Positions 453-13,277 of a DNA stretch of 13,667 nucleotides are shown here, piece by piece. Source of the stretch: Strigomonas culicis (taxonomy: Eukaryota; Euglenozoa; Kinetoplastea; Trypanosomatida; Trypanosomatidae); NCBI GenBank assembly GCA_000482145.1, contig AUXH01000524.1, positions 1 through 13,667 of the forward strand, written 5' to 3'. Numbering within the stretch: the first letter of the stretch is position 1; every line of letters starts with the position of its first letter. The position numbers were made by a program, and so were the translations under genes. The notes under the pieces were generated by a model. It was not told the origin of the DNA. It ran no database searches and was given only the letters and a program-made list of their open reading frames with translations.

Positions 453-2135
453 TTATAGTTTATTACTTGGCGGTGCCCACGTGTATTCGGGATTGTACTT
501 GAACCCATTCGCGGCAGAGAAGTCATCCGCCTCCTTGGGACCGCGCGACCCCGCCTTGTACGGGATGACGCTCACCTCCCCCTTATCGATCTTGTGCAGG
601 AGCGGCGTGAAGATGCGCCACGCGGCATCGAGCTCGTCCTTGCGCACAAAGTTGGTCGAGTTGCCCAGCACCGCCTCGTTGATGAGACTCTCGTAGGCAT
701 CCGGCAGCTGCGTGCTGTAGCGCGCCCGGTAGGTGAGATCGAGCTCCGTCTGGTGCGTGTTGCGCAGATCCTCCATAATGCCGGGCACCTTGTTCGTGAT
801 CTTGATGTACATGGCCTCGGAGGGCTGCGCGCGAATCACGAGTTCGTTGCGCTGCGCCGCGCTGCCGTAGGGGCGGGTCTCCTCCTTGAACTGGATGCGG
901 ATGCCCACGTGCTTGTCCTCAAGCGCCTTGCCGGCCTTCAGAATGAAGGGTATTCCGTCCCACCGATCGTTATCGATCTTCAGGCGGATCATGGCAAATG
1001 TGGGGCACTTGCTGTTCTTGGGCACGGTCGGGTCCTCCAGGTACCCGGGGATCGAGCCGTCCTCCGAGGCTGTGTACTGCCCGAGAACGCAGTCCTCCAC
1101 ACGCACAGCGCTGATGCAGCGGAGCGCCGCGACCTTCTCGTCGCGGATGTTCTCCGCGTCGAGGCTCTGCGGCTTCTCCATCGCGACCAGCGCGAGAATC
1201 TGTGTCAGGTGGTTCTGTATCACGTCACGGATGATGCCGAAGCTGTCAAAGTAGCCACCGCGGCCCTCCGTCCCGATGGTCTCCTTGAAGGTGATCTGGA
1301 TGCATGCGATGTTCTGGGCGTTCCACAGAGAGGAGAAGATGCGGTTTGCAAAGCGCACAGTCAATAGGTTCTGGACCATTTCCTTCCCGAGGTAGTGGTC
1401 GATACGGAAGATCTGGGACTCGTTGAAGAGCGGCTCCAGCTGCGAGGACAGCTGCGCAGACGTTTCCGTGTCACGGCCGAATGGCTTTTCAATGACGACG
1501 CGCACCCACCCACCGACCGGCTGCGGCATGGCGCCGTTGCGGATGCCGGTGGCGGCGGACACGAACGCGGTGGGCGGGAGGGCGAGGTAAAACAGACGGT
1601 TCCCCCCCGGTAACTTGCCCGTGAAGGCCTTCTCCTTCTCACAGATGACATGATGCAGCTTTTGGAAGTCCTCCACCTTGTCGTACTGCCCGGAAACGTA
1701 TGATATGCGGTCAAAGAAGGAGGCAACATGACAGCCTCTTTCGGACAAACGGGTGAGGTACTTCTTCAGCACCTCCTTTTTCCACTTTTCGACGTCATCG
1801 ATGCTCGTCCTGGCATAGCCGACGATGTTCACTTTGGGCGGGAGCATGCCGTTGCAGTACAGCTGGAACAGCGCGGGGAACGTCTTCTTCTTCGCCAGGT
1901 CGCCGCTCGCACCCAACACGACGATGGTCAGCGAGCGGTCCAGCAGCTCCTGCGGGACTTTTAATACGATCCGCTCACATGTCTCAAAGGCCGTGGCGTC
2001 GTGCGATAGGTCGTTCGCTGACTGGACAAGGAAGGACAGCACATCGGTGGGCTTCTTCTCAAGCACCTTGGTGCGGAGCACCTTGAGGATGGTGTCCACA
2101 TCCTCCACGTAGGTATCGGTGTTGGGCTGCGCCAT
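453..2135 (-). CDS. G6PD: Glucose-6-phosphate 1-dehydrogenase
   Basis: This enzyme oxidises glucose 6-phosphate to 6-phosphogluconolactone with NADP+, the first oxidative step of the pentose phosphate pathway and the main NADPH source for trypanothione-based defence. The NADP-binding motif GASGDLAKKK is at residues 75-84. EKPFGRD is at 216-222, the substrate motif RIDHYLGKE at 244-252, and the presumed catalytic base is His309 in IRDVIQNH. The protein is 560 aa with an N-terminal extension of about 60 residues before the Rossmann fold, as in trypanosomatid enzymes. The ATG at 2133-2135 is the first in frame. Cysteines sit at 53, 94 and 135, but positions 8 and 34 are Thr and Ser, where I recall T. 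cruzi having redox-active cysteines. The C-terminus is NKL, a degenerate type 1 peroxisomal/glycosomal signal. In other trypanosomes the enzyme is mostly cytosolic with a glycosomal fraction. No frameshift is seen. Confidence 0.98.
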   Translation of the reverse strand: MAQPNTDTYVEDVDTILKVLRTKVLEKKPTDVLSFLVQSANDLSHDATAFETCERIVLKVPQELLDRSLTIVVLGASGDLAKKKTFPALFQLYCNGMLPPKVNIVGYARTSIDDVEKWKKEVLKKYLTRLSERGCHVASFFDRISYVSGQYDKVEDFQKLHHVICEKEKAFTGKLPGGNRLFYLALPPTAFVSAATGIRNGAMPQPVGGWVRVVIEKPFGRDTETSAQLSSQLEPLFNESQIFRIDHYLGKEMVQNLLTVRFANRIFSSLWNAQNIACIQITFKETIGTEGRGGYFDSFGIIRDVIQNHLTQILALVAMEKPQSLDAENIRDEKVAALRCISAVRVEDCVLGQYTASEDGSIPGYLEDPTVPKNSKCPTFAMIRLKIDNDRWDGIPFILKAGKALEDKHVGIRIQFKEETRPYGSAAQRNELVIRAQPSEAMYIKITNKVPGIMEDLRNTHQTELDLTYRARYSTQLPDAYESLINEAVLGNSTNFVRKDELDAAWRIFTPLLHKIDKGEVSVIPYKAGSRGPKEADDFSAANGFKYNPEYTWAPPSNKL

Positions 2136-3036: not shown

Positions 3037-3987
3037 TTACTGCACTGGCGTTAGGTTCTTGGTGCCGAGCTCCGTCAGCTTCTTAAAAGCCGCGGAGAAG
3101 TCCTCGCAGAACTTGTCGTTATCCTTCGCGTATATATCCACGTACTTTTTGTAAGACGCGTCCAACAGCAGTGCCATGTCAGAAGGAAGCATCATGGCGC
3201 CCTTTGTCTTGTCGTCCATGAACTGCAGCTTTGCATTGTTGGGATTGAACACCCATTTTTCATCCAACAGCGCTATGAAAAATGAGTTGTCAAAACCGTT
3301 CTTGTCGTACGTCCACGGGCCGACAAAACCGCTGTTCTTCACGCGGCACTCGCCACACGTGTGCGCGCCGATGAGCGCCACGGTCTCCTTGTCGTTGAAG
3401 CCAAGACGCGTGAACACCTCGCGCACGTGGTCCTGCGTCTTGGCGCCGTCAGGGAGGCGGCCGTCGGGGCCACACACGGAGCCGTCCTTGGCGTCGGCGC
3501 GTCCCCAGCTGAAGGGAATGTTCGGCCCGCCCATGGCCTCGATGGCAACGTAGGCGGCCAGCACCCACAGGTCCGCGTAGGAGATCTGCGGGTACTTCTT
3601 CTTGAGGGGCTCGAGGGACTTGCGCGCGGTGTCCAGGCCCTTGTTGCCGCCGTAGTCGCACTCGGGGCGGAAGCGCATGGACGCCGAGTTGGGGGCTCCG
3701 TCCTTCTTCTTGCAGTCCCAGGACGCGGCCTCGTGCCACGCCAGGCGCACGAGCGTAGGCCCGAGGGACATGTTGTCCAGCAGCAGCTCCTCAATGTCAC
3801 TGCGGAGGCCTTCGATATCAAACGGGGGCGCCTTGGGCGCGCAGCACACAAAGGTGACCCCGCCCACAAAGACGCCCGCGGCAACACCACTGAAAACCGC
3901 AGTCGTGCGACGGAAGTGCGGGGCACTGGCGCGCGCGCGCGCTCCAAAGGCGCGCATCGCGACTTTTTGGGAGATGCGAGAAAACAT
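3037..3987 (-). CDS. APX: Membrane-anchored class I haem peroxidase (APX/CcP hybrid)
   Basis: This enzyme reduces H2O2 with ascorbate and/or ferrocytochrome c. The T. cruzi counterpart is a hybrid type A peroxidase. The distal pocket is Arg81, Trp84 and His85 in VRLAWHEA. The proximal His209 lies in LIGAHTCGE, with Asp270 as its probable hydrogen-bond partner. Trp225 in GPWT matches the radical-forming Trp191 of yeast CcP. Thr210 and Thr226 suggest an APX-like cation site. Residues 29-49 form a hydrophobic segment after a basic, Ala-rich N-terminus, consistent with a signal anchor. The ATG at 3985-3987 (MFSRISQK, 316 aa) is chosen because a strong acceptor AG lies at 4025-4026. The frame does run on upstream to 4212, but only from a TTG and across the splice tract. 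The positions of the canonical ascorbate ligands Arg172 and Lys30 are Asn218 and Met73. The T. brucei group lacks this gene. Confidence 0.95.
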   Translation of the reverse strand: MFSRISQKVAMRAFGARARASAPHFRRTTAVFSGVAAGVFVGGVTFVCCAPKAPPFDIEGLRSDIEELLLDNMSLGPTLVRLAWHEAASWDCKKKDGAPNSASMRFRPECDYGGNKGLDTARKSLEPLKKKYPQISYADLWVLAAYVAIEAMGGPNIPFSWGRADAKDGSVCGPDGRLPDGAKTQDHVREVFTRLGFNDKETVALIGAHTCGECRVKNSGFVGPWTYDKNGFDNSFFIALLDEKWVFNPNNAKLQFMDDKTKGAMMLPSDMALLLDASYKKYVDIYAKDNDKFCEDFSAAFKKLTELGTKNLTPVQ

Positions 3988-4477
3988 GGGAAAATCGAGT
4001 TTCACAAATAAGAAAAAGCAATGACTGTGAGTGAAAGAGGAAAGAAAAATAAAGATAATAAGGGAAAAAAAAGAAGTGATCGTCTCATAAAGGACACCAA
4101 ACAACAACAAAAAAGAAAAAAGAAAAAAATCAGGAGCAACCGCGTTGTGGAGGATACTAACGATCCTAGCAAGTGTTATACCTGTATGCAAGTGACGTGT
4201 GATAGTACACAAAAAGCAAGAACATTAATAAACAAATCAGTCCATCATAAACAAAGTAATTTACAACGTGAAGGAAGACTGTCCTCACAGGGAGGTGAAC
4301 ACGCAAACATGACAGTTAAATTGGACGACAAACATATCTACTGAAAAACAGGAAGCGTGTTATCGTAAAGTGATGCTGCTGCACATAGCAGCTCGCACCT
4401 GCTTACTGTCGACAGCACATTCTGTATGCGTATCGCTGCGCTTGTAAAGACGACTGTCGATGCTGCTGAGACTATGC
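3988..4477. other. Intergenic region before the peroxidase
   Basis: This 490-base gap contains the peroxidase 5' UTR (about 37 nt) and splice tract near its low end, then the presumed 3' UTR of the 983-aa gene at higher coordinates. Plus-strand frame 4021-4344 is Lys/Asn-rich low-complexity translation of the purine side of the tract and is not credible as a gene. Confidence 0.7.
4025..4076 (-). promoter_or_regulatory. Probable trans-splice acceptor for the peroxidase
   Basis: On the minus strand a long pyrimidine-rich tract (about 4030-4076) ends in CACAG, with the AG at 4025-4026. This gives a 5' UTR of about 37 nt before the ATG at 3987. It is the clearest acceptor in the window and decides the peroxidase start, because the longer frame would need translation upstream of the acceptor. 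Confidence 0.75.
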
Positions 4478-7429
4478 CTACTTGTCGGTTGAGGGGGCAG
4501 ATACCTCTTCACTCTTCAGCGGCTTGCAAGAACGATTGTCCGATGGCATATCCAGTGTTAGTGTCTGAGACACCTGTCCTCTCCAGCTGTCATCAGACGC
4601 CTCTTTTACACGGCTGGAGATGCCATGCTGTGTAGCGTGAGCTTCGAATTCCTTCGGTAAGGCCGTTGTGAGAGAGCGGCGGATATCCGAGAGTGTGCCG
4701 TAAGGGACTTGTCGAGCAGCGATCCCCCCACCGTCCGTATGGAAGTTGGCGTGGGTGTTTATCGCTGCGTGTGAAGTGTGGCGCGGCACAGAGAAAGACG
4801 CGAGAACGTTTGACCGTAGGGGCCTTTCGAGGGACACGGTGGGTGAACCGTACATGGTCGGTGGGAGTGAGTCCTTGTAGGTTGCAATAATCTGCAAAAC
4901 GGCGTCCATTGTAAAAACCACGTCCCCCGTGGGCTGTCCGCCACCCATGGTGCCGCGCCATATGTCTTCTAGCGTGCTGAAGAGAGAGGGAGGGCACAGG
5001 TTGCCGTGGGCCTGCCGCTCAATTCGGTCGCTTTCAGGCACCAATGGGATGATGGTGCAGCACATGCCGTGGCTGGAGCTGTAGAGGGAGAGACGGGTCC
5101 CTTGAAGCAGACAGGCAGCGAATAGCGCCAGCGCGCGGGCGTCATCGTTGACTTCTTGGATTTTGGGCAGCTTTCCAATCAGTAAATTGTTCTGACCTGT
5201 TTCGATGATCGTGGCCGTGATGCCATCATCGTCCCCTCTTTCAACAAGCCAAGAGTTGCGAACAAAAATGTCGAGGCGCAAGCAGTTGTCGTGTCTTATT
5301 TTAGCTGAAGAAGAGGAAGGCGCAATGAACGTGTGCATGGTGCACTGGCTGCGTATCATCCGCAGAAAATTAAGCGTATCGGAAAAGTATTTCCTCCGAG
5401 TATCATCCTTGCCCTTCTGCATACTGGCAGCGGAAACCCCTGCGTCGGCCGTGCACATCGCGTTCTCACGGAACTGCTTCACACTCTCCAAGTGCTTCGC
5501 CATTTTTTTCAGAAAGTGGCTATTGAGTGTCTCGCGGCCCGAGGCTGCGGACATGGAAGTGCCCATATCAGCATTCGAGAGGTCATTCTTGAAGCAGATG
5601 ACCGCAAACGACATATGCGAGGCGTAGTGGTTCTGCTGCTTTTCGACGGTCGACATGGCGAAGTTGAGGTCCATCGTGTGCGCACGTCTGTGCTCGATGA
5701 GCGCAGGACGCCCCGCCATGGAGTTGTAAGTGGAGCCCCACTGGAGCGAGGGCGACCGCGACTGGTTTACACAGAGCCCGCCGCGGTCGGAGACGTTGGA
5801 CTTGGGCGTGGCGGTGCGAAAGAAGGATTCATCGGCTCCCTTTGGGGAAACGAGCAGAGACACGTGCACAACGCGGACCACTCGCATCGGGCGGTTAAGG
5901 AGGCAGTTCCGCCAAAGCGACTGCAGCGTGATCGCCTCGTGCCTTTTCTTCCGCTTGAGCGGCGGCATGTGGAGCGAGATCGGGTACACGGTGAAGGTCA
6001 CAAACAAGCTGAAGAGGAGGATCGATTCGACGGACACAATGCACATGGCGACACCGGTAAACAGACCAGCCGCGACAATGGGTCGCTGCAGCTTGCGGAC
6101 GCAGTGAAGCACCAGCACTAGCTCGTAGAAGCTGTCTTGCTGCAGGCCCTGCGAGTAGAAGAGGCGAGCCCGGACCATGGCGTTGAGTAGCACGTTCCGC
6201 TTTCCATACAGGTAGACGTGGAAGCTGCCCTTGCTAGTTTGGGGTGACACAATGGGCATCCCCTTGGCGTTCGCCACGGGCATATGGTAGAGCATCGTCG
6301 CGGTTCGCAGGGACAGCACTAGGCACACAAAGACAGCGATCACTACTGCGACGTCGAGCAGGTCCGCTGCCAGCGTTAAACCAAAGATTAGAAGGAGAAG
6401 CACTGTTTTGAGCGGTCGTCGCCAGGATATAACATCGTTAAAGCGTAAGCACAGGTCCACCAGCGCCATGTAGGGGACCATGATGAAGCGTAGCGCAGCA
6501 TTATCCATTTGCGCTGGCACATCAGAGTCTCGAGCGTCAGACGGCGAGGCTATCTGACTGACATCTTTCGCATTCACCTTTTTCGACGAGGCTGCATGCG
6601 ATACCTCTCTACTGATGCTGCCGGGGTCCTCTTCGTCCAACGCATCAGTTTTACTTTTGTTTGGCCTATACAGGAGCAGCTTTGAAGTGGGTATGGAACC
6701 AAAGGCGTAGGGCAGCACCTGAAATGTGAAGAAGGCACTTCCTCCAATATCGGCACCGAATAACCCTTTTGTCGCGACCGTATTCAGTGTGTGCTCCTCC
6801 ACAGCCTTCATCATAGTTTGCTTGGGCTGCAGCGCAATGCAAATACCACCTCGAATGCTCATTAGCTCCTTCAGTGTTATCTTCGCCACCCCCACGCACA
6901 GTGGCGCCGTGCGCGGCAGCTCGGGTGAGGTCACGAGACCAATCGCGTTGTCCACCTGTCGCTCCATCACATTATCGCTGAGTGGTGGGCTGAGTTGAAG
7001 CAGCCGAATCTTCACCACACAGTCTGCAGCAGCGAGGGGAAGCGAGGCGAGCACCACCTCTTGAGGAACAACGTGGTATCGCTTTGTTCGAATGTCGCTA
7101 TCATCCCAACGAGTAGTTTTCTGCTTTTCGTGCTGCTTTCGATCTAACGTTACACTTATTTCCGAGCTTTCGAATTTCACAATTTTCTCGAAGAGCAACT
7201 GCAACTGTATTTTCGGTTTGTAGTTTTGTTCTAAGTCTTCTAATGTTCCTTTTTTGCTATCCTTGCACAGAGACAGCAAGTCGGGCTTCTTCTCTGGAAC
7301 GGAGAATGCTTCTGTCGTGCCCCCTTTTGTCGTCAGCTGCATCGCCATCAGCTGCTTCATACGGTAAAAGCTTTCACTCTCAAAAAGAGAGATCTGCGAA
7401 ATCTCACTGATACGGAATTCAACGTGCAT
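4478..7429 (-). CDS. Unrecognised 983-aa protein with two hydrophobic hairpins
   Basis: I do not recognise this family. Residues 70-240 look like a beta-rich cytosolic domain; strands around 74-96, 118-145 and 178-200, ending in GVAKITLKEL, faintly resemble a C2 domain, which is inference. A polar, probably disordered linker follows (about 255-310). Two long hydrophobic stretches, about 340-378 and 447-488, are each about 40 residues and each preceded by an arginine-proline pair (SWRRP, KLQRP). The second is closed by the basic PLKRKKR. This resembles the reticulon-like hairpins of MCTP-type C2 proteins. Residues 495-860 look mixed and soluble, and the last 120 are Ser/Thr-rich and probably disordered. 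The ATG at 7427-7429 is used; the frame extends to 7474 only through a TTG. The base composition and lack of breaks support a real gene. Confidence 0.85.
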   Translation of the reverse strand: MHVEFRISEISQISLFESESFYRMKQLMAMQLTTKGGTTEAFSVPEKKPDLLSLCKDSKKGTLEDLEQNYKPKIQLQLLFEKIVKFESSEISVTLDRKQHEKQKTTRWDDSDIRTKRYHVVPQEVVLASLPLAAADCVVKIRLLQLSPPLSDNVMERQVDNAIGLVTSPELPRTAPLCVGVAKITLKELMSIRGGICIALQPKQTMMKAVEEHTLNTVATKGLFGADIGGSAFFTFQVLPYAFGSIPTSKLLLYRPNKSKTDALDEEDPGSISREVSHAASSKKVNAKDVSQIASPSDARDSDVPAQMDNAALRFIMVPYMALVDLCLRFNDVISWRRPLKTVLLLLIFGLTLAADLLDVAVVIAVFVCLVLSLRTATMLYHMPVANAKGMPIVSPQTSKGSFHVYLYGKRNVLLNAMVRARLFYSQGLQQDSFYELVLVLHCVRKLQRPIVAAGLFTGVAMCIVSVESILLFSLFVTFTVYPISLHMPPLKRKKRHEAITLQSLWRNCLLNRPMRVVRVVHVSLLVSPKGADESFFRTATPKSNVSDRGGLCVNQSRSPSLQWGSTYNSMAGRPALIEHRRAHTMDLNFAMSTVEKQQNHYASHMSFAVICFKNDLSNADMGTSMSAASGRETLNSHFLKKMAKHLESVKQFRENAMCTADAGVSAASMQKGKDDTRRKYFSDTLNFLRMIRSQCTMHTFIAPSSSSAKIRHDNCLRLDIFVRNSWLVERGDDDGITATIIETGQNNLLIGKLPKIQEVNDDARALALFAACLLQGTRLSLYSSSHGMCCTIIPLVPESDRIERQAHGNLCPPSLFSTLEDIWRGTMGGGQPTGDVVFTMDAVLQIIATYKDSLPPTMYGSPTVSLERPLRSNVLASFSVPRHTSHAAINTHANFHTDGGGIAARQVPYGTLSDIRRSLTTALPKEFEAHATQHGISSRVKEASDDSWRGQVSQTLTLDMPSDNRSCKPLKSEEVSAPSTDK

Positions 7430-7480
7430 TGCACGAGAGAGTTTCAAAGCCGAAGAAAAAAAAACGACAAACAAGCAAAA

Positions 7481-7983: not shown

Positions 7984-8559
7984 CTATTGTGGAGCGCCGC
8001 TGCACCCAATCGACAAATTCAGATATCTGCTCGATATCTCTGTAAACAATATCCGCTCCTCTAGCATGACAGTCTGCCTATCTTGATACTCCTTTTCGAC
8101 CAGAGCAAATGCGCGCATGAAGAAATCGTGCTCGGTCATTTTCTTCGAAGCATCCGGTTCGGGCGGAAATAACTCACTTCTTTGGCTTTGTTCATCTTCA
8201 GCAGAGGACCAAGACGAAGTAGAGAGTGCTTCCACCAGCATATGGATTGTTGTGCTGTGTCCATTGGAAAGCGAACGACCATGAGATTGCGGCAGCGGCT
8301 TATTCTGCGGTGTTGTGTCAGGACTGGGTGATATCAGTCGTCCTCGGTTCTTGTTGCTATTCACACCATTGGGTGCATGTGCGCGCGGCTCCCGCGCGTC
8401 CGGCGCCGCGCCGGTGTCTCTCCCCGAAGAGGTGCACGCCCTTTGATCCAACAGTCCACGAGATTCGCTCTTTTGCAATTCATTTATGATACTTCTCTGT
8501 TCCTTTACTTCCGCCAGTATTTCCCGCCACGAGTTTTCGTGAGAACAAGAGCGACTCAT
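7984..8559 (-). CDS. Hypothetical 191-aa protein with terminal helices
   Basis: The product is not recognised. Residues 9-34 form a charged amphipathic helix with coiled-coil character. Residues 35-137 are Ser/Pro/Asn-rich and look disordered. Residues 138-182 are again helical and charged, around EHDFFMRAFALVEKEYQDR. There is no signal peptide, membrane segment or known motif, so it may be a small scaffold or adaptor. The frame opens with ATG at 8557-8559, ends in TAG and sits on the same strand as its neighbours. Its GC-rich middle contrasts with the AT-rich flanks, which supports coding. Whether it is conserved in other trypanosomes would decide if it is real. Confidence 0.7.
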   Translation of the reverse strand: MSRSCSHENSWREILAEVKEQRSIINELQKSESRGLLDQRACTSSGRDTGAAPDAREPRAHAPNGVNSNKNRGRLISPSPDTTPQNKPLPQSHGRSLSNGHSTTIHMLVEALSTSSWSSAEDEQSQRSELFPPEPDASKKMTEHDFFMRAFALVEKEYQDRQTVMLEERILFTEISSRYLNLSIGCSGAPQ

Positions 8560-8979: not shown

Positions 8980-10776
8980 TCACTGCTTTTTCTTTTCCTC
9001 GTCGTTTTCGTCTCGTTGCGTTTCGTTTTCCTTCACAGATTCCAGTGCCTTTTGCTCCTCATTTTCCACAGCATCTTGGTGTTTATTGTCTTCGTCCTGC
9101 CCCTCGTCGTCGTCGTCATCCCCGTCAGCTGATCGGGAAGTGTCTACGGGATAGATCCAGCGCTGATAGAGCAGGATAGCAAAGACGACGTCATCGCGGA
9201 AGCAAGCAATGCGGTGGAGCCACGGCATTTTAATGATAAAAGAGAACAGATCATCGATGACGGTGTTGAGTGACTTATAAATGAACGTGCGCCACGGCAG
9301 CTGACCAACACTCTTGAGCTTGTAGTTAATAAAGATTTGCGGTGTCATCATCACAAAACCGAAGAAGTAGATGAACTGCACCTGCGTGTTGACCAAGAAG
9401 GAGTACCAGCCCTTATGGGTCTCGTAGACGGCAGAATACACGCTGTAGATAATCAGGATGGGGATCATTATATACACAAGATAGCGCACTGCCGTGTCAT
9501 CGTGCTTACGAGTACGCTTGTCGTAGGAGGCGCTGAAGCTAATGGAGTAGCCCAAAACGCGCCATCCGCGGCGTGCGCTGGGCGCCACACTTCCTTCGGA
9601 CTCATTGGATGAAGGCGTCACACGGACGATGCTCATAGTCTGCATAAGCTTCCAGTACTCGGTCAGGACACCGATACCTGAAGGCAGCAGTACCGTCCAC
9701 GATGTTTCCTCACTATCCAGCAGGTAAAGAAAAATGATGGTCTGGCAATAACAGTCAAGCGCAATCGTGCGCAATGAAAGTCCGGTGAAGTCTTTTTTGC
9801 CTTTCCAGAACTTGACGGTGTTGGAGAATGCCAAGTACTCAAACACCATATGCAGAACTGTCACAATTGCCGTGACCGCCAGCAGGATGTGATTGGTCTC
9901 GAGAAAAACGCGCTTTACCTCATCAATATCCACGGAGGCGCCCATTCCCATAGTTGCCTGCTGCCTGAGGCTCTCCTCATACTGTTTGTGCATAAGCACA
10001 CGCCACGCCGCAAGGGGCACAACCTCAACGGTGAAGTTGAAGGCTGACACGACCGTTGTCTCGTTAACCTCTAGCAAGTGGTCATTCAAGACCCAGAAGT
10101 TGTTGATGTAGACGACAGGGGCGTAGAGGGAGTCCTTCATAGGTTGCGTGAACGCCAAGTAGTGAGGGGGTAGAGGATCCGTGACATCGACAACGGGGCT
10201 TAGTGTTAGGACCGGCTGCATGTAAGAAGCGTAGTGCGGCTCCTCGTGCTCCGGCTCCGAGTGGTTTCCGAAGAGATGTACTTCCCTTTTCACTTTCTTC
10301 TCATGGAACCAAATGAGGGGGGTCGAATTGGTGAAGCTTTCCCCGCTCATAGACCACTCAATCATCAAGTTGACACTGCAGTTCGCCTCGAGACACTCGC
10401 TCAGGTTGAGACGGCGAGACGCCTTATGAGCGTCCCTCGTCAGCTCCTTGTGATTGAAACGGAGGTCCTTGAACACAATGGGATCAAAAACAAGTGGCTC
10501 GGGCGTGATGGAGAGATTGAAATACGCGTCCAGCTGAGCAAACGGCTTCAGTGGTTCTTTCGGCACCACCTGTGGCACTACAGGCTTATGTGCACTTTTC
10601 TGGATAGGCGGGTCAGACGCAGTTCTGATTACCACATCACCTTCTTCCGCAAGTTGAGGTGAGAAGGAGCTCATGAGGGACAATACCACCATCATTGCAA
10701 TCCATACGCCCATTTGCCCCATCGCTCCTCCGTTATTATTGTTATTGTTATTGGTTTGCGCATTATTTTGGGCCAT
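8980..10776 (-). CDS. CLPTM1-family multi-pass membrane protein
   Basis: This is a clear member of the CLPTM1 family, eukaryotic ER/Golgi membrane proteins. Human CLPTM1L is reported to scramble GlcN-PI for GPI synthesis, and CLPTM1 to retain GABA-A receptor subunits. The product is 598 aa, between CLPTM1L and CLPTM1 in length. Residues 21-37 are a signal anchor or signal peptide. The domain at 45-290 has several N-glycosylation sequons (N87, N124, N132, N150, N171, N238, N247), so it is probably lumenal. Membrane segments lie near 296-316, 341-371, 432-451 and 459-478, with another at about 528-540. Family signatures include FEYLAFSNTVKFWKGK (312-326), HKGWYSF (454-460), TPQIFINYKLKSV (478-490), DDLFSFIIKMP (508-518), RDDVVF (527-532) and QRWIYPVD (538-545). 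An Asn run at 9-15 and an acidic tail from 551 flank the conserved body. The ATG at 10774-10776 fits an acceptor 30 nt upstream. Confidence 0.96.
   Translation of the reverse strand: MAQNNAQTNNNNNNNGGAMGQMGVWIAMMVVLSLMSSFSPQLAEEGDVVIRTASDPPIQKSAHKPVVPQVVPKEPLKPFAQLDAYFNLSITPEPLVFDPIVFKDLRFNHKELTRDAHKASRRLNLSECLEANCSVNLMIEWSMSGESFTNSTPLIWFHEKKVKREVHLFGNHSEPEHEEPHYASYMQPVLTLSPVVDVTDPLPPHYLAFTQPMKDSLYAPVVYINNFWVLNDHLLEVNETTVVSAFNFTVEVVPLAAWRVLMHKQYEESLRQQATMGMGASVDIDEVKRVFLETNHILLAVTAIVTVLHMVFEYLAFSNTVKFWKGKKDFTGLSLRTIALDCYCQTIIFLYLLDSEETSWTVLLPSGIGVLTEYWKLMQTMSIVRVTPSSNESEGSVAPSARRGWRVLGYSISFSASYDKRTRKHDDTAVRYLVYIMIPILIIYSVYSAVYETHKGWYSFLVNTQVQFIYFFGFVMMTPQIFINYKLKSVGQLPWRTFIYKSLNTVIDDLFSFIIKMPWLHRIACFRDDVVFAILLYQRWIYPVDTSRSADGDDDDDEGQDEDNKHQDAVENEEQKALESVKENETQRDENDEEKKKQ
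10732..10752 (-). repeat. Trinucleotide repeat coding for an Asn run
   Basis: An AAT/AAC-type repeat encodes seven consecutive asparagines (residues 9-15) of the CLPTM1-like protein, just before its hydrophobic signal segment. The run lies outside the conserved domain and probably varies in length between strains. Confidence 0.85.
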
Positions 10777-11081: not shown

Positions 11082-13277
11082 CTAGTGCAGCATCTCCCAT
11101 ACATCAGTGGTAAACAGAATAAAGCTAGTTTTTCTGAGAAGGAGAAGGCCGGCAGGTAAGTAATTCACAATGCTGGTCAATGGAGCAAAATCAGTGTAGC
11201 GGGCGAGCAGCAAAACGCGCTGATGAGCGGGAAACCCCTTTGTTAGACGCGTTGCGTCCCTTTCAGTGGGACAGCAGAGAGCACACATCAGCGAGAGAAG
11301 CAGCAATACCGTAATGCCAGCAGTAAACGAAGGCCAACCATTACTCGACTTTGGCACATCTTTCTTCACGGTGCGACGTCTGTACAGCTCCGATAGGGTT
11401 AGCAATGCTTTTTCTTTTAATTTGGTGTCGTAAGTTGTTGTTGCAAATGCTGCGGTGAAAGAGTTCCGCATCTTTTTTTCCGGTAGCATCGACCCTGGAC
11501 CTGTTTCGATGGCAATTAACTGACTGCAAATGGGGTCATGGACAGCTGCCGTTACCGCCACTTCCATGCTGCCCGTGGCCTCAGACGTGGATTGAACGCA
11601 GACCATAACAGACACCATATCCGACGCGTAGCACAAAGTCACGTGCTTGAATCGCTGCTTTAAGCGGATAATGGCATCCTTGGCCGTGGCCACCAAAATC
11701 AGTTTATACTTGTTACTGGCTATGTCCAACCATTCCACCCCTTCTGAGTCCAGTTGCTGTAGCAGCAGAACCTCTGATTCATCCAGCGGCTTGGGGACAA
11801 TAGTGACACCTTTTCCTTCATGCAGTTTCAAGTTCATGTGGGACTGCTGCGTATCCTCTTCTCCCGTGGTGGGCGATGCGTTTGCAACGTGCTGTTTCTT
11901 CTTCGGTGCGTCCGCCGCTTCAAACAGCGGCGGTGGTGTACTGGCCGTGTTTCGCTTCCGCATCGGTGCTTCCCATGGCAACAGCACAAATTCGCTTAAG
12001 TACATGAAATTGAGCACATAGGCGACAACGCGATATACGGTTGGTATACGGCAAGTGAAAACAAAAAGGTCGTTTACTAAAAAGCCCATCTGCGCCAAGA
12101 GGAACGTGGTTCGACTGAAGCGCGCGCTCTGTCCGTCAATTGACCACATGGGAAGCGAAAACTTCCCCATGGCAACGTTATCCATCAAGTTGGGTGAAAA
12201 GTTGTAAAGAAAGGCCAGCAGATAAAGGATGCCGAAGACCATAGCAGAGATTTCTTCTGCCTTGCTTACAGTAATACCCCAAAGCAGGATCTGTCCAATA
12301 TGAACAATCACAACAGGGGCGACAAAGTAAACTGCTTCACGCAAGCAATCCACGTATGCAGTCTTGGTCAAGGAGCTCACGGCAACAGCTTCTGCAGACA
12401 CCTTCACGACTGAAACACAGTACGCGAAAAAAGACAGGATGGTTGTCAAGTCTAGCCCAGCAACAAAAAACGATTCGTAAGCGGCAAAAAAAAGCATGGC
12501 ACCAAGCACACACGCAATTCGCAGCTTAAACTCTCGCGACGCGTCAAGATTCACGTTCAGCATCCTCTGTATCAAGACACTGATTTCACCCCCTGCGTTG
12601 GCAGCAATACTATAGATGCGAAAAAAGACAAACGAGCGCAGCTGCAACAGCTCTTTCTTGTACTGATTAGCTATTTCAAAACGATGGTCTCCTCGAGATA
12701 GAAGGACATCGTGGGCGTGCTGAATCTTCATGGTCATGATGCGACAGTGATCTGTGCAGTGAGGATTCTGGTCAGGGTGCCACCGTTTGATTTGCTGCCG
12801 GTAAGCCTTCTTGATTTCTGTAGGAGAAGAGGCGTCTGTAATGCCGAGTACTTTATAGTGTTCTTCTACTTCTAAATCAATGAGCACATTCCACAGTGGC
12901 CACCGAAAGTACAGCAGCGCAGCCAAAAACGTAAAAATGACAACCAAGCCAACAGCATATTTTTTGCGCGCGGGTGCTCTGGCCTCGTACTTCCTTTTCT
13001 GTGCCAAATACTCCTTGAAGCAAACATTAAGCCAACCGCCACATGACTCCACATTCTCAAAATTCCCAGGTGCTTGTATACTGCGAATCTTACCATTACC
13101 TTTTTCACGGATAAAATAGCTGCGCCCAACACCTTGCATGCGGCTTGCAAACGTGGCAAATGCTGTGTTTTTCTTCAGCATGGTGAACCCTAGATTTTGC
13201 TCTTGCGCTGTCGTTACGCCGTTGTCTTCATCGACAAGTAAAGAGATCAGCGACAGTGCTTTGAAATTGTCAGACAT
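11082..13277 (-). CDS. Polytopic membrane J-domain protein
   Basis: The 731-aa product carries a J domain at about 138-195 (HYKVLGI, then KKAYRQQIKRWHPDQNP with HPD at 167-169). This identifies it as an Hsp70 co-chaperone that stimulates ATP hydrolysis through HPD. A membrane segment at 107-124 precedes it, after the basic cluster ARAPARKK, so the J domain may be lumenal and work with BiP; this is inference. Further hydrophobic segments lie near 253-274, 277-293, 315-333, 343-360, 392-407 and 415-434. A soluble region of about 483-640 is followed by a segment at 650-669 and a hydrophobic tail. Residues 315-437 align by eye with the C-terminal core of the adjacent CLPTM1-family protein (see findings). 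It lacks the zinc-finger and Gly/Phe regions of type I/II J proteins, so it is type III. The ATG at 13275-13277 is first in frame and lies 71 nt below a good acceptor. A Sec63-like role is possible but unproven. Confidence 0.92.
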   Translation of the reverse strand: MSDNFKALSLISLLVDEDNGVTTAQEQNLGFTMLKKNTAFATFASRMQGVGRSYFIREKGNGKIRSIQAPGNFENVESCGGWLNVCFKEYLAQKRKYEARAPARKKYAVGLVVIFTFLAALLYFRWPLWNVLIDLEVEEHYKVLGITDASSPTEIKKAYRQQIKRWHPDQNPHCTDHCRIMTMKIQHAHDVLLSRGDHRFEIANQYKKELLQLRSFVFFRIYSIAANAGGEISVLIQRMLNVNLDASREFKLRIACVLGAMLFFAAYESFFVAGLDLTTILSFFAYCVSVVKVSAEAVAVSSLTKTAYVDCLREAVYFVAPVVIVHIGQILLWGITVSKAEEISAMVFGILYLLAFLYNFSPNLMDNVAMGKFSLPMWSIDGQSARFSRTTFLLAQMGFLVNDLFVFTCRIPTVYRVVAYVLNFMYLSEFVLLPWEAPMRKRNTASTPPPLFEAADAPKKKQHVANASPTTGEEDTQQSHMNLKLHEGKGVTIVPKPLDESEVLLLQQLDSEGVEWLDIASNKYKLILVATAKDAIIRLKQRFKHVTLCYASDMVSVMVCVQSTSEATGSMEVAVTAAVHDPICSQLIAIETGPGSMLPEKKMRNSFTAAFATTTYDTKLKEKALLTLSELYRRRTVKKDVPKSSNGWPSFTAGITVLLLLSLMCALCCPTERDATRLTKGFPAHQRVLLLARYTDFAPLTSIVNYLPAGLLLLRKTSFILFTTDVWEMLH
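12693..12866 (-). other. J domain within the 731-aa protein
   Basis: The segment covers residues 138-195. It holds helix II (PTEIKKAYRQQIKRW), the HPD loop, and a helix III ending in MKIQHAHDVLLS, where KIQHAHDVL matches the usual (I/K)(N/Q)xAYxxL pattern. Two cysteines, 174 and 178, sit between HPD and helix III, which is unusual. If the domain is in the ER lumen they could form a disulfide. Confidence 0.9.

Follow-up and report, generated by a model that had tools for sequence, protein, structure and literature searches.

Does a membrane protein with a J domain, encoded beside a gene for a CLPTM1-family protein in the trypanosomatid Strigomonas culicis, share part of its membrane core with that neighbor? 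The two genes lie in a stretch of 13,667 nucleotides (contig AUXH01000524.1 of assembly GCA_000482145.1; hereafter, the window) from a genome of 17.7 Mb in 670 contigs. The first is an open reading frame (ORF) of 731 residues at 11082..13277 on the minus strand, for which orthologs were found in Angomonas deanei, Porcisia hertigi (P0004), and one further source (P0002-P0004 in all). The second, at 8980..10776 on the same strand, encodes a CLPTM1 of 598 residues with a lumenal beta domain and a 3+1+3 membrane core (residues 295-545) that is predicted to have the PQ-loop fold of the KDEL receptor and cystinosin. An initial annotation of the window had aligned residues 315-437 of the J protein, correctly placed at 11967-12335, with this CLPTM1 by eye, and had proposed that the J protein carries a divergent CLPTM1-like membrane core. 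The likeness holds for the second half of the membrane region, and the model that we favor, at a probability of roughly 0.6, is a polytopic trypanosomatid J protein whose membrane region would end in a CLPTM1-related PQ-loop half-bundle.

Plain BLASTP between the two neighbors finds a match so short and weak (30 residues, 26.6 bits, E 0.003) that pairwise comparison could not settle the matter, and the evidence therefore comes from profiles. The J profile was built from residues 205-445 of the four orthologs (P0001-P0004), and the CLPTM1 profile from the 104 sequences of 500-800 residues among 121, the search having found 833 and listed 120. Aligned with hhalign, the two score 39.35 over 117 columns (probability 67%, E 5.2e-5 for one comparison), with J residues ~311-443 colinear with CLPTM1 residues 429-548. 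Column shuffles that kept hydrophobic and non-hydrophobic classes separate, and so preserved the helix pattern, gave a mean of 15.8 (standard deviation 3.4) and a maximum of 28.7, and none of 150 reached the observed score. The score rises to 45.6 against 75 more distant CLPTM1s (0/200 shuffles; maximum 25.9) and to 51.5 against 62 distant ones (probability 92%, E 7.5e-7 for one comparison). Two subsets of the orthologs, P0001 with P0002 and P0003 with P0004, each beat their shuffles alone (0/100 in both cases). As natural controls we used 49 ORFs with multiple transmembrane (TM) segments, 41 from Escherichia coli K-12 and eight, including two PQ-loop proteins, from this genome; against the 62 distant CLPTM1s, the highest control (23.8) lies below each of the four single J sequences (28.1-45.1). 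Residues 300-445 alone score 45.5, which none of 100 shuffles equaled. The CLPTM1 likeness lies in the second half of the J membrane region alone, and we are highly confident that J residues ~311-443 are homologous to the part of CLPTM1 that forms its linker helix and second repeat.

This CLPTM1-like half (residues 307-443; 11949..12359, minus strand) comprises a linker helix and a second three-helix repeat of PQ-loop type, and carries the motifs P-N-x(3)-N and DLFxF-x(8)-R. Read in the hhalign register, eleven positions that are invariant in the four J proteins have the same residue in 84-100% of the 104 CLPTM1s. Eight are universal in the latter, namely Y352/Y470, F356/F474, P362/P479, N367/N484, D403/D509, F405/F511, F407/F513, and R416/R522 (J/CLPTM1 numbering), and the others are nearly so or frequent: W435/W540 (102 of 104), L404/L510 (98), and P438/P543 (87). 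The landmarks listed in the initial annotation are all present at the residues it gave, but four vary among the J orthologs: Y317 is V in two, P321 is C in one, T391 is R in one, and P412 is S in one. Conversely, its list lacked Y352/Y470, F356/F474, and P438/P543, which are also shared. It was right about the 11-residue insertion ahead of DLF in the J protein and about the missing RDDVVF and QRWIY, of which the W is retained. From the CLPTM1 C-terminal core, PQ..N..K..DDLF.F..KMP..HR..RDD..QRW, the J proteins keep P, N, DLF.F, R, and W, whereas Q, the first D of DDLF (in three of four orthologs), H, RDD, and QR are changed or lost. In all four, PQ has become PN (N363); K488 of CLPTM1 faces G, R, R, and R at position 371, and K372 adjoins it. 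The helices of the low-confidence J model (307-333, 337-357, 365-370, 389-410, and 413-432) follow the same order as those of CLPTM1 (420-451, 457-476, 478-487, 495-514, and 519-541), an agreement that is weak because of the quality of that model and that covers the aligned half.

Compared with CLPTM1 and CLPTM1L, the J protein matches in the linker helix, the second repeat, and the Y, F, P, N, DLFxF, R, and W..P positions. It differs in its unrecognizable first repeat, the loop insertion, and the residues named earlier, and has a J domain between its first TM segment (TM0) and the next hydrophobic segment, where CLPTM1 and CLPTM1L have a lumenal beta domain. It is not a member of the CLPTM1 family: PF05602 does not match it, a J domain stands where the lumenal domain would be, and PQ has changed to PN. 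CLPTM1L has been reported as an endoplasmic reticulum (ER) lipid scramblase of glycosylphosphatidylinositol (GPI) synthesis (PMC9997660); that the J proteins have lost PQ, RDD, and QR speaks for a role that may have changed relative to CLPTM1L-type activity.

How did the J core arise? One account, broadly that of the initial annotation and put by us at somewhat below even odds, is that CLPTM1 was duplicated in tandem in a trypanosomatid ancestor, a J domain replacing the lumenal domain, followed by rapid divergence. The genes are adjacent here and, judged from the locus tags JKF63_01604 and JKF63_01605, also in Porcisia hertigi; the recognizable relative of the J core is its neighbor's family; and TM0, lumenal domain, and bundle may follow the same plan in both proteins. 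That two homologous genes are neighbors where one CLPTM1 was detected in the whole genome speaks for an old duplication, which we regard as possible. By way of comparison, humans have a CLPTM1 and CLPTM1L pair.

A recent copy of the neighbor, in line with the tandem duplication that the initial annotation had suggested, is unsupported, since the J protein is not closest to trypanosomatid CLPTM1s: it scores 28.5 against the 35 trypanosomatid-type sequences and 51.5 against the 62 distant ones, and all 20 random depth-matched sets of 35 drawn from the latter give 44.9-52.7. Over the 104 single CLPTM1s, the J score correlates at -0.63 with identity to the neighbor, although several distant fungal sequences (Linnemannia) score only ~25. 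The trypanosomatid set is less diverse, which can account for some of the gap between the profiles but not for the single-sequence trend. A tree on the 117 columns has a saturated J branch (~9.6 changes per column), and grouping J with the trypanosomatid CLPTM1s is neither supported nor rejected (approximately unbiased [AU] test, p 0.255), the value for a wider kinetoplastid-like clade being 0.286.

The greater similarity to distant CLPTM1s would also suit a second origin, in which the J core is an older member of the PQ-loop superfamily that was fused to a J domain apart from CLPTM1, the adjacency being coincidence or old synteny. CLPTM1 itself belongs to the PQ-loop proteins (PMC3281891, Table 1; also by its predicted fold), and through its CLPTM1 likeness the J protein shares a possible 3+1+3 plan with the KDEL receptor, cystinosin, SWEET, and MPDU1, though with PN in place of the PQ motif and without a direct profile match to the superfamily. 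We consider this origin rather unlikely, in that two PQ-loop proteins from this genome reach no more than background with the J profile (16.7 and 16.6) where the 104 CLPTM1s score 21.6-50.6, a comparison limited to two proteins taken as single sequences. These two (C488:2126-2302, minus strand; C630:4963-5463, plus strand) pass the PF04193 cut-off and rank second and third of the 49 controls against the CLPTM1 C-terminal core, while being at background against the J core. Among the CLPTM1s, PF04193 matches part of the protein in the window weakly (E 0.0043) and exceeds its cut-off (22 bits) in P0058, an ANDGO-tagged sequence (24.4 bits).

On which side of the membrane would the J domain lie? 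TM0 (residues 106-124; 12906..12962, minus strand) follows a K/R-rich stretch and precedes a D/E-rich one in all four orthologs, with 7 K/R versus 2-3 D/E before it and 0-1 K/R versus 3-4 D/E after it. The J domain itself (residues 139-205; 12663..12863, minus strand) matches the DnaJ profile (PF00226) at residues 139-193 with 48.7 bits against a cut-off of 27.8 (E 7.9e-13), contains HPD at 167-169, and is matched by this profile in all four orthologs. By the positive-inside rule, the charge pattern around TM0 places the N-terminal side in the cytosol and the J domain in the lumen; the two cysteines that are invariant across the four orthologs, C174 and C178, suit an oxidizing compartment. From these features of the sequence, the J domain probably faces the ER lumen. 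The order of parts resembles that of Sec63, with a TM segment, then a J domain that would be lumenal by charge pattern, then further TM segments; a profile match to a solved Sec63 takes in TM0 as well as the J domain (residues 93-170; E 1.5e-4). No Sec63-domain family is found among the Pfam matches of the J protein up to E 10, and the Sec63 counterpart listed in Leishmania is a different protein, J34 (PMC9141911).

The first part of the membrane region (residues 218-298; 12384..12626, minus strand) has three hydrophobic segments, a weak one (218-236) and two strong ones (254-272 and 280-298), which are putatively the first three helices. With one cut applied throughout, P0001 and P0002 show seven hydrophobic segments within residues 218-435, and P0003 and P0004 show six. 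Segment 218-236 contains R and E and might fail to span the bilayer; relative to the CLPTM1-like half, the J domain would then lie on the opposite side and could work in the cytosol with a cytosolic Hsp70, the membrane core being merely an anchor. The TM0 charge pattern in all four orthologs, the conserved cysteine pair, and the Sec63-like order of TM segment and J domain all speak against such an arrangement, and we place it on the unlikely side.

Several observations weigh against the favored model and should be kept in view. The first of the putative helices is only weakly hydrophobic, and residues 205-306 carry no CLPTM1 signal (score 12.0, equaled by 69 of 100 shuffles), so that of the membrane core claimed in the initial annotation, the second half (~307-443) is recognizable and the first is not. 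The predicted J model is poor, with a predicted local distance difference test (pLDDT) score of 42.5 and values of ~30 in the membrane part, and does not establish the fold of the core. Against the full CLPTM1 set, one control ORF, judged by length and place to be E. coli MdtO, scores 29.7, above P0001 (25.2) and P0004 (26.15) taken singly, and a PQ-loop protein at 26.2 lies slightly above the same two. Neither PF04193 nor, at E<=10, PF05602 matches any of the four J proteins; the PF05602 search, which the initial annotation had proposed as a check, is uninformative because the model stops at residue 451, ahead of most of the similar region, and Pfam therefore cannot show the likeness. Many soluble J-proteins outmatch Sec63 through the J domain alone, and no report on localization or function of the J protein was found in the literature searched. 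Chance or convergence, by which hydrophobic helices and a few prolines would mimic CLPTM1, could draw on the faint BLASTP match, the silence of Pfam, and the overlapping controls, but it is very unlikely, given that class-preserving shuffles fail (0/150, 0/200, and 0/100), the ortholog subsets agree, and an invariant polar N, D, and R are shared along with prolines.

The J gene is very probably the ortholog of Leishmania J62 (LmjF34.0040 / LINF_340005300), a type III J-protein catalogued without a function (PMC9141911, PMC4488524) and compared here by its published layout. In Leishmania infantum, J62 has 679 residues, a J domain at 95-161, and hydrophobic segments at 66-89, 174-197, and 209-232 (PMC9141911); Porcisia P0004 has HPD at 153 and segments at 93-111, 207-225, and 238-256, and the two layouts agree when shifted by ~30 residues. 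In Leishmania major, J62 (LmjF34.0040), ascorbate peroxidase (LmjF.34.0070), and glucose-6-phosphate dehydrogenase (LmjF34.0080) are ordered as in the window (PMC10163012, PMC3723561, PMC4488524). The orthology is inferred from this agreement in segment spacing and gene order. The term CLPTM1 is absent from PMC9141911, and no such core is described for J62 in it. The literature searched contains no paper joining a J domain and CLPTM1, and those that name both PQ-loop and DnaJ seem, from their titles, to concern other subjects; no description of a J-protein with a CLPTM1-like half came to light there.

The remainder of the J protein and of the window can be described briefly. The C-terminal part (residues 491-731; 11085..11807, minus strand) matches no known family; strands are predicted at ~543-580 from the low-confidence model, and hydrophobic segments at 651-669 and 696-714 from hydropathy. 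Its last stretch is, by eye, well conserved in the nearest ortholog. In order of transcription on the minus strand, the J protein and CLPTM1 genes are followed by an ORF of 191 residues (7984..8559), which has no match in a search of Pfam and NCBIfam; a protein of 998 residues with a central hydrophobic region (4478..7474), for which these databases give no match beyond chance; a haem peroxidase (3037..4212); and glucose-6-phosphate dehydrogenase (453..2135). Judged from gene order, the 998-residue protein occupies the place expected for LmjF.34.0060.

What might such a protein do? If segments 218-236, 254-272, and 280-298 are indeed the first three helices, the protein would consist of a TM segment, a lumenal domain, a 3+1+3 bundle, and a cytosolic tail, the same plan as CLPTM1 with the lumenal domain swapped for a J domain. 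On the favored model, the J domain would occupy the ER lumen, flanked by TM0 and the bundle as the lumenal domain of CLPTM1 is, and would recruit BiP through HPD; BiP could then act on, or be handed to, a membrane or lumenal client bound by the PQ-loop-like bundle. This function as a BiP-recruiting client adaptor is speculative and put forward tentatively. The full combination, in which a PQ-loop receptor or scramblase in the ER of trypanosomatids is coupled to a chaperone, has J in the lumenal-domain place, and was born by duplication of the neighboring CLPTM1, seems to us quite doubtful. J-proteins decide what an Hsp70 works on. If the proposal is true, this one would couple the Hsp70 of the lumen with a bundle that handles lipids or cargo, in cells that rely on GPI anchors for their surface, and it offers a structural hypothesis for J62 together with a list of residues to test.
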